Notes under the pieces: model-generated
What the model saw: the letters and a program-made list of their open reading frames with translations, nothing else
Told to the model about the DNA's origin: nothing
Database searches by the model: none
Translations under genes and position numbers: made by a program
Part shown: positions 9,667-32,922 of the stretch, one piece after another
Layout of the letters: every line of letters starts with the position of its first letter
Position numbering within the stretch: position 1 is the first letter of the stretch
Assembly (NCBI GenBank): GCA_021108395.1
Contig: JAIOQZ010000015.1
Span: forward strand, 1-33,513
Origin: Candidatus Cloacimonadota bacterium
GTDB lineage: Bacteria > Cloacimonadota > Cloacimonadia > Cloacimonadales > JAIOQZ01
Reading direction: 5' to 3'
Length of the DNA stretch: 33,513 nt

Positions 9667-10671
9667 CTAAGGCAGGTTCCACACCTGCTCTTCCAACAGG
9701 TGGCGGAATTTATCGGCCAGCCAGGCTGGGTGTACGCCGCGCAGACAACGAAAGTGATTCCTGGGGCAGGTTTTGCCGCCATGTAGAGAGCACGGCTGAC
9801 AGCGCAGGTCGGAAGTGACGACGACAGCGTTGTCGTTCAGAGGGCGGAATCCCAGGCGCGGATGGGTGGCGCCAAACAGTGCTATCTGCGGCTTTTGCAG
9901 GGCCGCGGCAATGTGCATCGGGCCGCTGTCGTTGCTGATAACACAATCCAGCCGCTGTATCAGCCTCGCCAGCCCGCCGGTGTCTGTTGCGCCGGTGAGG
10001 TCGATGACGCCTTCGGTCTCGCGCAGGATGTCCACAGCCTGTGGCTTGTCATCGGAGCTGCCGCACAGCAGAAACTGGCAGTTCCAGTCATCGGGTACAC
10101 GATTGATGAGGCAGGCGAAATACTCTGCCGGATAGCGCTTGGTGGCGTGGCGGGCGCCGGGAAACACTCCGATGAGCGTCTTGCGCGGAATGACGCCGTA
10201 TTGCACAAACAGCTCATCGATTGCGTGGGCGGCATCGTCTGGATGAAGCTGTGGCCAGGGGAGTTTTTCGTTCAGCCCCAGCGGCTTGAGCGCCGAGGCG
10301 TAGAGGTCGAGGGTGGTGTCAATTGCTGCGTTGCCAAAGCCGTGCACGATGGCCCAGCGGGTGAGCCGGCGCTTGTTGTAGCGCACAGTGCGGACAGACT
10401 TCAATGCGCGGCACAGCAACCACGAGTTGAGCTTGGCCTGCAAGTCCACCGTCAGGTCAATCTCGCCAATCTCCGCCGCGGTGGCGCGGGCGTCATTGCG
10501 CCATTCCACTATGCGGTCCACCGTGCCGAACATGAGCGCCACCGGCACATTGACGGGCTTGGTGACGAAGATGACGCTTGCCCCCGGCCAACGCTCGCGC
10601 AGCCAGCGTGTGATGGGCTGGGTGAGAATAACATCGCCCAGCGAGCTGAAACGAATAACGCAGATGTTCAT
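9667..10671 (-). CDS. ADP-heptose:LPS heptosyltransferase family (GT9)
   Basis: The 334-residue product is a GT-B fold glycosyltransferase of family 9. The N-terminus is typical of the family (IRFSSLGDVILTQPI), the central loop reads GVFPGARHATKRYP, and the nucleotide-sugar site reads ISNDSGPMHIAAAL. A C-terminal run of cysteines (CQPCSLHGGKTC) is also seen in many anaerobe homologues. These enzymes add heptose to the inner core of lipopolysaccharide on the cytoplasmic face of the inner membrane, which is the main reason to infer an outer membrane. The start codon overlaps the stop of a 13-codon mini-ORF (ATGA), so translation is probably coupled. It is the last gene of the alaS operon. Which core residue it acts on is not determinable. 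Confidence 0.9.
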   Translation of the reverse strand: MNICVIRFSSLGDVILTQPITRWLRERWPGASVIFVTKPVNVPVALMFGTVDRIVEWRNDARATAAEIGEIDLTVDLQAKLNSWLLCRALKSVRTVRYNKRRLTRWAIVHGFGNAAIDTTLDLYASALKPLGLNEKLPWPQLHPDDAAHAIDELFVQYGVIPRKTLIGVFPGARHATKRYPAEYFACLINRVPDDWNCQFLLCGSSDDKPQAVDILRETEGVIDLTGATDTGGLARLIQRLDCVISNDSGPMHIAAALQKPQIALFGATHPRLGFRPLNDNAVVVTSDLRCQPCSLHGGKTCPRNHFRCLRGVHPAWLADKFRHLLEEQVWNLP

Positions 10672-10709
10672 GCTTGAGCCGTCTCAATAGCACGCCTGTG
10701 GCGTGTCAT
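10668..10709 (-). CDS. 13-codon mini-ORF, second unit (MTRHRRAIETAQA)
   Basis: This small frame starts in the ATGA that ends the preceding mini-ORF and stops in the ATGA that starts the heptosyltransferase gene. It differs from its tandem partner by five bases: two are synonymous, and three give Leu/Ile, Ala/Thr and Pro/Ala exchanges. The peptide is basic at its N-terminal half. It may be a real leader for coupled translation, or a by-product of a 38-bp duplication that keeps the frame relation. No Shine-Dalgarno sequence stronger than GAG is visible. Confidence 0.35.
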   Translation of the reverse strand: MTRHRRAIETAQA

Positions 10710-10747
10710 GGTTGGGCCGCCTCAAGAGCGCGCCTGTGGCGTGTCAT
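10672..10747 (-). repeat. Two 38-bp tandem units at a gene junction
   Basis: Units 10672-10709 and 10710-10747 match at 33 of 38 positions. They fill exactly the space between the methyltransferase stop and the heptosyltransferase start. The period of 38 is one less than 39, so each unit shifts frame by -1 and regenerates an ATGA overlap. Confidence 0.9.
10706..10747 (-). CDS. 13-codon mini-ORF, first unit (MTRHRRALEAAQP)
   Basis: The start overlaps the TGA stop of the methyltransferase gene (ATGA), and its own TGA overlaps the next mini-ORF start in the same way. Ribosomes ending the methyltransferase could re-initiate here and be passed through two short frames to the heptosyltransferase. 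GAGG about 10 nt before the next ATG could assist. Expression is unproven; the support is the arrangement and the mostly conservative differences between the two copies. Confidence 0.35.
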   Translation of the reverse strand: MTRHRRALEAAQP

Positions 10748-11495
10748 GCCTGGGCCACCACGAAGACGCGCCGTTCGGACTCTGGCTCGGTGAGCGGCTG
10801 GTCAAGTTCCCGCACCCTGGCGAAGTGGCTGTGGGCGAATCCGGCCTGCCGCAGCCAGAGGGCTACGTTGTCCAGCGACCAGACGCGGTTGAAAATGGTT
10901 TCACTGAAGCGCTGCCAGTGGCCTGATTCGTCGGTGAAGAAACCTGAAATGCTCGTCCAGGCGCGCCGCTCGGACTCGTCATAAGCGCCGCGGGTGACGA
11001 TATGGGCGTCGTCCAGATCGCGCACCGACAGGCTGTTCCAACTTCGCAGCCCAAGCGCGGTGTTGAGGTCGAACAGGAACCAGCCGCCCGGCTTCAGCGC
11101 CTTATGCGTGGCGCGAAAGCAGCCGCGCAGGGCGTCGGCGTCGGGCAGGTGGTTGAGCGCGTCGTAGGTGGAGACGACGGCGTCCACCGGCTGGTCGAGC
11201 CGATAGCCGGCGGCGTCGCCCAACAGAAACGCGGCCTTTCCCTTCCTCTGCCAGTTGGCGCAGTTGCGTCTGGCGTGAGCCAGCATGTGTTCCGAAAGGT
11301 CGATGCCGGTGACGCTCCAACCGGCGGTGAGGAAATGGCGCACCAGGTGGCCGGCGCCGCAGCAGAGGTCGAGCACATGGCCGCTCGCCAGCCCCCTGCG
11401 CTCGAAGAACTCCAGCAGGCAGGGCGCGACCTGGTCGGAAAAATCACCCCACCGCAGGTTGTAAATCCGAGCGAAGCCGGGGCCGTAGGCCTGCA

Positions 11496-11496
<1 letters not shown>
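10744..11496 (-). CDS. Class I SAM-dependent methyltransferase
   Basis: This 250-residue protein has a Rossmann-type methyltransferase fold. Motif I is VLDLCCGAGHLVRHF, followed by the acidic end of strand 2 in VTGIDLSEHML, a motif IV-like STYDALNHLPD, and a post-motif GGWFLFDLNT. These features place it among small-molecule methyltransferases of the Methyltransf_25/11 type; the substrate is not identifiable. Its start overlaps the alaS stop (TGATG), so it is translationally coupled to alaS. Its stop overlaps the first mini-ORF start. Proximity to a heptosyltransferase allows, but does not show, a role in surface glycan modification. Confidence 0.88.
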
Positions 11497-14114
<2,618 letters not shown>

Positions 14115-14127
14115 GTATTGGCCTCCG

Positions 14128-14706
14128 TTAGTTCTTTATCAAGATTTCAACGAGTTTATACACGGTTGTACATGGGTTGCGGTCGGCGGGTTGGGTTTGC
14201 TTCTCATATAAATCATGTAGACGCTTGGCATTGGTGATAGCGGTATCGAGTTTGTCTCTAAGAACGTGAAACATAGCTTCATCGTTTTTCTTGTATTCAC
14301 GGTCGAGCTTACGATTTAATATCTTGATGTATTGATGTCTGGAAATCGCTGTGTTCACATAATCATAATGAAGAAGGAACCAAAGCTCGAAAGCTTCATT
14401 CGAATAAGCAATTCTAACATCTTGTGTGCAAACTGCCTGATTGAAATCCTGCGAAGTGAAGTCATCCTTGTCAAAAACGCACCAGCATTGATCAAAGTTC
14501 CAGCCCTGCTGTTTCTCTCTTTTATTTCGATACAGTGCAGCTTGCTTAACAAGGTTCAGAGGAGATGCGTTGATGAATTGCACATGCACTAAACCTGGTT
14601 TGAACTTGCGAAAATAGCTTGGTTCAGTCATCTTCCCATTACACACGATAAGAACTTGCTTCTTCGGTGCACGGGTTGGTTTTTTTCTACTTTGGTGATT
14701 ACTCAT
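14128..14706 (-). CDS. rloB: RloB-family TOPRIM-like protein (defence pair, second gene)
   Basis: The start at 14706 is chosen because it overlaps the 3' end of the ATPase gene by 8 nt and begins a normal basic N-terminus, giving 192 residues. The early segment NGKMTEPSYF carries a conserved glutamate (E28), and CVFDKDD carries D79 and D81. This E...DxD pattern is that of the TOPRIM-like catalytic site of RloB and related nucleases. RloB proteins are encoded beside an ABC-type ATPase (RloA) in restriction-modification and abortive-infection loci, and the pair resembles AbiL/PARIS-type ATPase-TOPRIM defence modules. Base composition is clearly AT-richer than alaS, which fits horizontal transfer. 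That it acts as an effector nuclease is inferred from family and context. Confidence 0.8.
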   Translation of the reverse strand: MSNHQSRKKPTRAPKKQVLIVCNGKMTEPSYFRKFKPGLVHVQFINASPLNLVKQAALYRNKREKQQGWNFDQCWCVFDKDDFTSQDFNQAVCTQDVRIAYSNEAFELWFLLHYDYVNTAISRHQYIKILNRKLDREYKKNDEAMFHVLRDKLDTAITNAKRLHDLYEKQTQPADRNPCTTVYKLVEILIKN

Positions 14707-15910
14707 TTTCGCCTTCTGGAAGCAATGAGTCGATGTACGGGATACCACCAAAACGACCTTGCAGGTAGTTCTTAGCAAGCGCAGTGTCATTGCGCACTTT
14801 GTAATCAGAAAGTGCAATCATTTGTGATGAACTTGAGTCATCTTTTTCAACCAGCCAAACTTGGTCTCTTCTTTGAATTCTCTGGTCGAGTAAGTATGGC
14901 GAATGTGTGGTGTATATGAACTGAGCATTTCCGATATTATAATCTCTTGAATGAAGTAAACGCAACAGCTGTTCAATCAACAATGGGTGAAGACTGGATT
15001 CAAATTCATCGATTGCAACAATGGAGCGTCTATGCAAAGTATCAATGATTGGGCCGGCAAGACTTAGAAACCGCCGTGTTCCCTGTGATTCATGCTCCTG
15101 CAAATCAAAACTGATCGTCTGCATTCCTTGAACTTGTTCAGAGAAGTAGTTATGTTGAGTGGAGATGGATGGTGTTTCATCCAGACCATTATCGACAACT
15201 TTGAAGTCGACAATGTCAGTATCAGCATTTTGAAGCATATCTATGATTGCTGATTTCAGGGTGCTGTTGCGCTCCAATATTTTTATAGTGGATAATGGAA
15301 AAGCATCGAATTCTTCAACGAGCTGATTGAACTGATGAAACCAAGCGACCACTTGTTTTGATATCTCTCCATTGTGATAGGACAGAAGAGATAAAAAGAG
15401 TACGTTGGGTCTTAGGTGATCCTTCAACTTCTTCCCTTCTTTGAATGCATTATTAATGAATATGAAATCAGAGCCATCAACTCGCTCATAAAGCTTGCTT
15501 TCTCTTTCGACAGTTCGGAACAAATACTCATGCTTAATTACTTCAGCATCAAACGAAAATCCGTAACGATACTCGATACCATCCTGTATGATAATCGCTT
15601 CGAACTCTGTCGGCATTGATTCAGGATTATCTCTTAACAGGAAAGGGTGTCTTTTGATTGATGGTTCCTCTGCATCACGGAAAGAGTGGAGCACCATGGT
15701 TCGCATGCGATACATAGCATCCAGAAAATTAGTCTTTCCACTCGCATTCGCGCCATAAATCGCCGCTGATTTCAGTAGCTTGTACTTTCGCCCCTTGGGC
15801 TGAAATACATGTGTTTCTTCGTGTTCTTTGATTGCGTTTGATGCAACCATACTGAATTCAGTATCATCTCTGAATGAGCGGTAATTCTTCACACGGAACT
15901 TAACGAGCAT
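14699..15910 (-). CDS. rloA: RloA-like AAA/ABC ATPase (defence pair, first gene)
   Basis: The start at 15910 is an ATG preceded by GGAGG at 5-nt spacing. The frame extends upstream only to a TTG that lacks a ribosome site. The 403-residue product is an SMC/OLD-like ATPase of the AAA_15/AAA_21 type. The N-terminal segment LVKFRVKNYRSFRDD is characteristic, Walker A is GANASGKT at 53-60, a signature region GTRRFLSLAG follows, and Walker B with the D-loop reads IVAIDEFESSLHP near 305. A late THSPYLLDQR matches the H-loop. RloA ATPases work with RloB, probably as the sensor or regulator of the effector. The gene is AT-rich compared with the flanking chromosome, has its own good promoter, and overlaps rloB. 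Confidence 0.87.
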   Translation of the reverse strand: MLVKFRVKNYRSFRDDTEFSMVASNAIKEHEETHVFQPKGRKYKLLKSAAIYGANASGKTNFLDAMYRMRTMVLHSFRDAEEPSIKRHPFLLRDNPESMPTEFEAIIIQDGIEYRYGFSFDAEVIKHEYLFRTVERESKLYERVDGSDFIFINNAFKEGKKLKDHLRPNVLFLSLLSYHNGEISKQVVAWFHQFNQLVEEFDAFPLSTIKILERNSTLKSAIIDMLQNADTDIVDFKVVDNGLDETPSISTQHNYFSEQVQGMQTISFDLQEHESQGTRRFLSLAGPIIDTLHRRSIVAIDEFESSLHPLLIEQLLRLLHSRDYNIGNAQFIYTTHSPYLLDQRIQRRDQVWLVEKDDSSSSQMIALSDYKVRNDTALAKNYLQGRFGGIPYIDSLLPEGENE

Positions 15911-15935
15911 AGTAACCTCCAAGCTTTATGTGCTT

Positions 15936-31424: not shown

Positions 31425-31437
31425 CAAGGGAGCAGAC

Positions 31438-31989
31438 ATGGCTACATACAACCTGACCACTCCACTCAAGACCGAAGACCTCGAAAAGCTGCGCATCGGC
31501 GATTCGGTGTATATCACCGGAACCATCTACACGGGGCGCGACGCCGCCCACAAACGCCTGGAGAAGCTGCTCGAAGAGGGCAAAGAACTGCCGTTCCCAC
31601 CCCAGGGCGCGGTGATGTACTACGTCGGCCCGGCGCCGGCGCCACCCGGCAAGCCCATCGGCAGTGCCGGCCCCACCACCAGTTACCGCATGGACCCATA
31701 CGCCCCGGCGCTACTGGATGTCGGACTCAAGGCGATGATCGGCAAAGGCCCGCGCGGGCAGAACGTCGTCGACAGCATGATCAAGAACAAGGCGGTGTAT
31801 CTGGCGGCCATCGGCGGCGCGGCCGTGGTGGTGGCGGCGTCCATCAAGGAAGCGAAGGTTATCGCCTACGACGACCTGGGCACCGAGGCAATCCGCGAAC
31901 TGCGCGTCGAGAACTTCCCGTGCGTGGTCGCCAACGACACCAGCGGCGGCGACGTTTACAAGGCAGGCGTGAAGGAATACGCGAGGTAA
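31438..31989 (+). CDS. fumB: Class I fumarate hydratase, beta (C-terminal) subunit
   Basis: This 183-residue protein matches the C-terminal domain of class I fumarases. It starts LTTPLKTEDLEKLRIGD, followed by YITGTIYTGRDAAHKRL, the substrate loop SAGPTTSYRMDPYAP, and KGPRGQNVVDSM. It pairs with the upstream alpha subunit to form the active site. GGGAG precedes the start. It is the last gene of the GC-rich TCA block; the following SIR2-like gene is AT-rich. Confidence 0.92.
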   Translation: MATYNLTTPLKTEDLEKLRIGDSVYITGTIYTGRDAAHKRLEKLLEEGKELPFPPQGAVMYYVGPAPAPPGKPIGSAGPTTSYRMDPYAPALLDVGLKAMIGKGPRGQNVVDSMIKNKAVYLAAIGGAAVVVAASIKEAKVIAYDDLGTEAIRELRVENFPCVVANDTSGGDVYKAGVKEYAR

Positions 31990-32024
31990 TGCCTCCCGGC
32001 GTTACCCGAAGATAGTGAGAACGT

Positions 32025-32052
32025 TGGGGCGTGGCCACGGGGTGGCGCCCCA
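32025..32052 (+). other. Strong GC-rich hairpin before the SIR2-like gene
   Basis: TGGGGCG (32025-32031) pairs with CGCCCCA (32046-32052), and CCAC (32035-32038) stacks inside with GTGG (32042-32045), leaving a 3-nt bulge. There is no T tract. It recalls stem E of the R repeats but is not the same sequence. It may end fumarase transcription or shape the leader of the next gene. Confidence 0.55.
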
Positions 32053-32070
32053 TTTCACGAGGAAAAGAAA

Positions 32071-32922
32071 ATGAATTTGGGGTTTCTCTTAGGTGCGGGG
32101 TTTTCGGTGCCAGCGGGGTATCCGACAGTTGATGAAATAGACAATGCTTTCTTAAATAACACATATGAAAATAGAACACTATCTCTATTTACTAATTTGA
32201 GAATAACATCATACCCATTTGATCAATTGTTGAATGTATTCACACCATACCACCAATCTATATTGATCGATGTTTGGAATTCTTTCAATGTCCGGAACTA
32301 CGAAGAACTTTTCCAACTGTTAGTCGACTTACATCGTAATGATAAAACAATACAATCTAAAGATTTCGGAATATTTACTTCTATCGCTCAAAAACACTAC
32401 AGTGAATTTAACGAAAAACTCTTTATAACTGAATTGAACAGAGATCCTGATCATCTCATCTATTTTTTCAGGATATATGTGATAGAGATTATCTATCATT
32501 GCTTATCAAATCGTTTAACTTCTACAACTGTGTTTACAAATCTAATACTTAAACTATTACTTTCTAGCATAGAAAATACATTGCATGTCATAACTATTAA
32601 TCATGATACATCGTTAGAGCAAGCTCTTGTCAGTAATGATGTCCCATATTCTGATGGGTTCGATACTGCTAACTGCTTCAAGGATGTATGGCCTCCTAAC
32701 GCACTTCATCTTTACAAACTACATGGTTCTATTGATTGGTATTCAAACTCTTGCCTCATGAAGACTACAAATCTACTGCGCATTCCTGAAGAAAACAGTC
32801 ATAAGCTAATAGATTCAATTATAGCTGTTGGTATAGAGACAAAGTTTCATTTCTATTCACTTGAGTTCATGAGCACAATACTCAATAAAGTTCGTCAGAA
32901 CATTGATGAGATTAATGTGTAG
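32071..32922 (+). CDS. SIR2-like NAD-binding protein, 3'-truncated by an IS
   Basis: The 283-residue frame opens with a SIR2-type NAD-binding motif (LGAGFSVPAGYPTVDEID, GAGFS at 8-12). Later landmarks of SIR2_2 proteins are VITINHDTSLEQAL and LYKLHGSIDWYS. Prokaryotic SIR2 proteins of this type are defence effectors that degrade NAD+ on phage attack. The frame stops inside the left end of an IS3-type element, before the GYSF-like segment expected near the C-terminus, so the product is probably incomplete. The last Val codon and TAG are supplied by the IS end. The gene is strongly AT-rich, and GAGG precedes the start. Stand-alone action versus a lost partner gene cannot be decided here. Confidence 0.75.
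   Translation: MNLGFLLGAGFSVPAGYPTVDEIDNAFLNNTYENRTLSLFTNLRITSYPFDQLLNVFTPYHQSILIDVWNSFNVRNYEELFQLLVDLHRNDKTIQSKDFGIFTSIAQKHYSEFNEKLFITELNRDPDHLIYFFRIYVIEIIYHCLSNRLTSTTVFTNLILKLLLSSIENTLHVITINHDTSLEQALVSNDVPYSDGFDTANCFKDVWPPNALHLYKLHGSIDWYSNSCLMKTTNLLRIPEENSHKLIDSIIAVGIETKFHFYSLEFMSTILNKVRQNIDEINV

Follow-up and report, generated by a model that had tools for sequence, protein, structure and literature searches.

The window analyzed here is a stretch of 33,513 nucleotides from a Candidatus Cloacimonadota bacterium (contig JAIOQZ010000015.1, positions 1 to 33,513 of the forward strand). Its minus strand carries a chain of genes and mini-ORFs in the order alaS -TGATG- MT -ATGA- MTRHRRALEAAQP -ATGA- MTRHRRAIETAQA -ATGA- hept, composed of the following features:

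11496..14114, minus strand: alaS (alanyl-tRNA synthetase), at the head of the chain; Pfam tRNA-synt_2c, E 5.8e-198
11494-11498, minus strand: TGATG overlap of alaS stop and MT start; the junction reads ...GAGGACTGATGCAGG
10744..11496, minus strand: MT, class I SAM-dependent methyltransferase, 250 aa; Pfam Methyltransf_25, E 1.3e-19
10744-10747, minus strand: ATGA, MT stop/U1 start
10706..10747 (10747->10706), minus strand: mini-ORF U1, MTRHRRALEAAQP plus stop; repeat copy 10710-10747
10706-10709, minus strand: ATGA, U1 stop/U2 start
10668..10709 (10709->10668), minus strand: mini-ORF U2, MTRHRRAIETAQA plus stop; repeat copy 10672-10709
10668-10671, minus strand: ATGA, U2 stop/hept start
9667..10671, minus strand: hept, glycosyltransferase family 9 (heptosyltransferase), 334 aa; Pfam Glyco_transf_9, E 2.9e-35

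Junctions and lineage of the gene chain

The MT protein ends in ...PESERRVFVVAQA followed by the stop, its gene reading ...GTGGTGGCCCAGGCATGA at the end on the minus strand, and for the N-terminus of hept the alignment agreed with the start positions in relatives. Stop/start overlaps of 4 or 1 nt between co-directional frames, as used to recognize termination-reinitiation pairs, were found throughout the chain (one TGATG and three ATGA), and in terms of this geometry the four consecutive junctions appear coupled in form. The ATGA-linked series from MT through both mini-ORFs to hept, which had been claimed from the letters alone, proved to be exact, with all three overlaps located. The accompanying argument that a period of 13 codons minus one base preserves the linkage when duplicated is geometrically right (38 = 3x13-1). 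Immediately before alaS and in the same orientation, an overlapping pair encoding a RloB-like protein and an AAA_21 ATPase (14128-15922, minus strand) matches the AbiLi/AbiLii defence models.

In relatives without MT in between, hept is located just downstream of alaS, at a distance of ~50 nt in three cases (L072, L080, L081); of the 11 loci, five others have it within about 0.2-0.55 kb. Among 125 genomes of the phylum, MT was matched at E <= 1e-25 in two, including the source genome, and in the other one MT was not found beside hept. Nor does hept follow the MT homologues located elsewhere. As alaS and hept stand together in relatives lacking MT, the repeat would be lineage-specific. Among the genomes compared, the MT-hept junction is particular to the source lineage, and the repeat is no older than this junction.

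The 38-bp repeat and its probable source

U1 and U2 are identical at 33 of 38 positions, with a period of 38 bp (TRF score 136, 2.3 copies). Two of the five differences are silent (CGC/CGT and GCC/GCT) and three are replacements (L/I, A/T and P/A); since the copies differ at five sites, the array is not a simple assembly duplicate. Genome-wide surveys, which covered 2.41 Mb read as stretches (84% of the genome), delimited what chance explains. In a sample of 1.2 Mb, one stop triplet in four (25%) is overlapped by an ATG, and a direct ATG-stop overlap occurs in 152 of 1,196 co-directional gene pairs. Relays via short ORFs that use ATG only were counted 13 times with one step and once with two steps among these 1,196 pairs, the latter being the U1/U2 locus itself; when GTG starts were included, longer relays appeared at other junctions as well. 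The 38-bp repeat exceeds chance, the lone ATG-stop overlap does not. At other genomic loci, no 38-bp unit was detected (BLAST; <=3 mismatches over 27 nt).

A third and more diverged copy, which the original prediction appears to have overlooked, is likely provided by the 3' end of MT, lying in the same register and frame:

10744..10781, minus strand: terminal 38 nt of MT including the ATGA, probably the parent copy in diverged form; similarity concentrated in 10744-10772

This tail shares 21 of 38 positions with each unit in register. Over the 25 nt preceding the ATGA, 17 match U1, a value that was equalled at 0 of 66,638 other window positions. When the 1,896 predicted gene 3' ends from the 2.41 Mb were ranked (k=26), the MT tail came first, with 18/26 matches to U1 and 16/26 to U2. 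A match to U1 as good as that of the MT tail was seen in only 1 of 693,911 in-frame coding windows. The frame common to the three copies reads RRVFVVAQA in MT, RRALEAAQP in U1 and RRAIETAQA in U2, each followed by a stop codon. Moreover, the C-termini of MT homologues follow the pattern PExExRVFxVAxx up to the stop; because RVFxVA is conserved in the homologues, the tail belongs to MT and is the likely parent of the units. The units' initial 9 nt (CACGCCACA) have no counterpart in the MT tail, and U2 by itself matches the tail less well (p about 2e-4 to 4e-3), with no significance when aligned to it with gaps, so that copying from the tail is well supported but not proved. Copies of the MT 3' end would nevertheless be the simplest account of the units, and from the sequence comparison we infer the direction of copying as being from MT into the array. 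The end of alaS was also considered as a source, but its similarity to the unit was no higher than that of shuffles.

Only two tandem arrays in the 2.41 Mb scanned cover both a gene 3' end and the next co-directional start. In the other one (C2:128985-129055, equivalent to L107:8985-9055), the 3' end of the upstream gene is repeated with units of 33 and 32 bp; the upstream and the downstream gene presumably both encode GWxTD-type products. Here, the mini-ORF MTSQQMTGLWL starts 4 nt past the upstream stop and terminates within the ATGA at which the downstream gene starts. Its frame differs from that of the upstream gene, following a one-base difference between the copies. This array appears to be an independent second case, similar rather than identical in kind to U1/U2.

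Translation signals and competing explanations

Of the readings considered, the one that we favour, and hold to be rather probable, is that slippage duplicated the MT tail and that the resulting spacer serves as a termination-reinitiation relay to hept. MT would have come to sit between alaS and hept with short overlaps, and slippage would then have made tandem copies of its 3' end, yielding U1 and U2. With a copied segment that is coding, 38 bp long and ending in ATGA, each copy would form an open 13-codon ORF running from ATGA to ATGA. Ribosomes leaving MT would restart at U1, then at U2 and finally at hept, every passage unfolding the structure over the following start. The array would be tolerated because the 76 inserted bases leave the coupling of hept to MT intact, and the mini-ORF peptides would be by-products. 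What the sequence shows directly is the overlaps, the period, the single locus and the in-register similarity to the MT tail; that the mini-ORFs would be translated, that reinitiation would occur and that hept output would be affected, we infer. In gene pairs tested in E. coli and Haloferax, reinitiation is almost lost once stop and start lie ~20 nt apart, and no more of the upstream gene than its last 15 nt is needed to support it (PMC10666635); the review literature on stop-start spacing is less uniform (PMC12548453). Therefore, a plain 76-nt insertion should weaken or end the coupling of hept, which two coupled mini-ORFs would not, and the copied tail could carry the whole reinitiation signal.

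To assess the signals at the starts, pairing with the anti-Shine-Dalgarno (anti-SD) sequence was calculated. No 16S gene or rRNA match was found in the assembly, which is rated 98% complete, and for this reason the standard anti-SD was assumed. Under this assumption, duplex energies amounted to -6.2 kcal/mol at the U1 ATG, -6.7 kcal/mol at the U2 ATG and -2.7 kcal/mol at the hept ATG, with 82% of genes showing stronger pairing than hept. In addition, the hept start is predicted to be occluded by a local structure:

10669..10694, minus strand: predicted hairpin over the GAG (weak Shine-Dalgarno) and the AUG of hept; local MFE -10.2 kcal/mol

Its stability is matched by 4.6% of 785 ORFs in the genome that start with ATGA. 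The hairpin is whole in U2 and has three pairs broken in U1; in the predicted structures, its completion in U2 is due to exactly three of the five sites at which the units differ. Random substitution of U1 gave an equally stable hairpin in 3.7% of cases. Dependence of hept on a relay would fit the weak SD and the hairpin, both being modest signals recognized post hoc. As to larger structures, an RNA element was rejected, as the fold of the whole 151-nt junction yielded z = -1.0 and the hairpins of U2 are absent in U1.

The array could also be a neutral tandem duplication, left by slippage in a spacer and of no consequence for translation; hept would then initiate on its own and the ATGA links would be a geometric by-product. 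A period of 3k-1 is expected one time in three, a coding parent gives open frames for free, the substitutions show no constraint and the ATG overlap is what 25% of stops have by chance. All of this makes neutrality a possibility to be taken seriously, albeit one that we regard as unlikely, given a hept start that combines a weak SD with an occluding predicted hairpin, and given that in both junction-spanning arrays the stop of the final mini-ORF overlaps the start that follows. Another reading is a tuned attenuator, in which ribosomes are lost at each step and the unit number sets hept below MT in the manner of a variable tandem-repeat rheostat. Reinitiation is usually incomplete, and the SD that U2 provides for hept is weaker, and the hairpin tighter, than those that U1 provides for U2, as this reading would have it; evidence of copy-number variation or selection is lacking, however, and no relative has the MT-hept junction, which renders the attenuator improbable. 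Compared with the stepwise lowering of hept output that had been suggested originally, a relay preserving coupling across the 76-nt spacer would be the simpler reading of the locus.

The possibility that the units encode a functional small basic peptide in two copies, likewise raised in the original prediction, draws on both copies being open and alike. Yet, a copied coding tail with a 3k-1 period makes every mini-ORF open and coupled automatically, and hence the lack of stops and indels is no evidence for a peptide. When the unit was given five random substitutions, no stop arose in 91% of cases, and with 25% of single changes being silent, ~1.3 of five are expected versus the two seen; the substitution pattern is therefore devoid of a coding signal. 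The tally of two synonymous changes, three replacements and no stop or indel had been correct as such, but it fails as a coding argument. Considering that the unit is also missing elsewhere in the genome, a peptide function found no support and is very improbable. Equally hard to credit, if not more so, is the insertion of a dispersed palindromic or mobile repeat (REP-, MITE- or MIRU-type) at the ATGA. The unit does contain CACGCC-ACA-GGCGTG, and MIRUs, the mycobacterial interspersed repetitive units, insert with matching geometry (PMC12548453), but the genome search described above returned no second copy and the likeness to the neighbouring gene end indicates a local origin. The single genomic locus largely refutes a dispersed element. 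REP and MITE families are characterized by many copies and a conserved hairpin, whereas this repeat occupies one locus and U1 is without the U2 hairpins.

Relation to known relays and possible generality

MIRUs represent a precedent that the original prediction had overlooked. MIRUs such as those at senX3-regX3, reported by Supply et al. 1997, are tandem intergenic units with a short ORF coupled at -4 nt (PMC12548453, PMC4213456), and a review proposes that this coupling limits the cost of insertion (PMC12548453). Their unit lengths are 77 and 53 bp (PMC4213456), and they occupy 41 loci in M. tuberculosis H37Rv, being apparently mobile (PMC2734929). U1 and U2 likewise are short ORFs with -4 nt overlaps, provided by three ATGA, and by our arithmetic 77, 53 and 38 are all of the form 3k-1. 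In contrast to the dispersed MIRUs, the U1/U2 array is confined to one locus, and its 38-bp unit was apparently derived from the tail of the upstream gene itself. As far as its relatives indicate, the source lineage lies outside the mycobacteria. By this comparison, the locus would resemble a MIRU in its working, but is not itself one; most likely, it is a MIRU-like coupling spacer that arose from local duplication.

The stop/start geometry is also shared with ATGA/TGATG termination-reinitiation pairs (PMC6728339, PMC10666635), which normally have one junction between full genes, whereas the U1/U2 locus interposes two mini-ORF steps. In the bicistronic-design leaders and short nonsense upstream ORFs of synthetic biology (PMC13255528; bicistronic design cited in PMC12548453), a meaningless short ORF feeds ribosomes to the next gene. 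These are engineered and have a strong internal RBS, while U1/U2 would be a natural counterpart with weak SDs and arranged in series. Local duplication of a 3' end as the source of such a relay was not encountered in the open-access literature.

Tentatively, and with considerable doubt, the tandem copying of 3' gene ends at ATGA junctions might be regarded as a general, self-repairing route by which operons acquire spacer DNA, with 3k-1 units surviving because each copy becomes a coupled mini-ORF, and the number of units tuning the downstream gene. If this route were true, the two arrays, independent of each other and from one genome, would exemplify it. The U1/U2 locus would also give MIRU-like translation relays a simple origin that requires no mobile element. 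Repeats bridging overlapping gene pairs would then be expected to be biased to 3k-1 and to resemble the tail of the upstream gene, both of which can be counted over sequenced genomes. The locus further carries the warning that chains of open mini-ORFs can form automatically and need encode no peptide.

Some other arrangements were noted in the course of the survey. Two intergenic tandem arrays are near-perfect, one comprising 3.9 copies of 69 bp at 100% (C5:106314-106582) and the other two copies of 76 bp at 98% (C23:39274-39425); their motifs are alike, e.g. CGCTACG/CGCTAC and GTTCGATG. Within the window, a gap at 31437-32922 (plus strand) is spanned by the short ORF MPPGVTRR and then by a 19-codon ORF with a GTG start, both joined through stop/start overlaps; this bridge is without a repeat and probably reflects chance.
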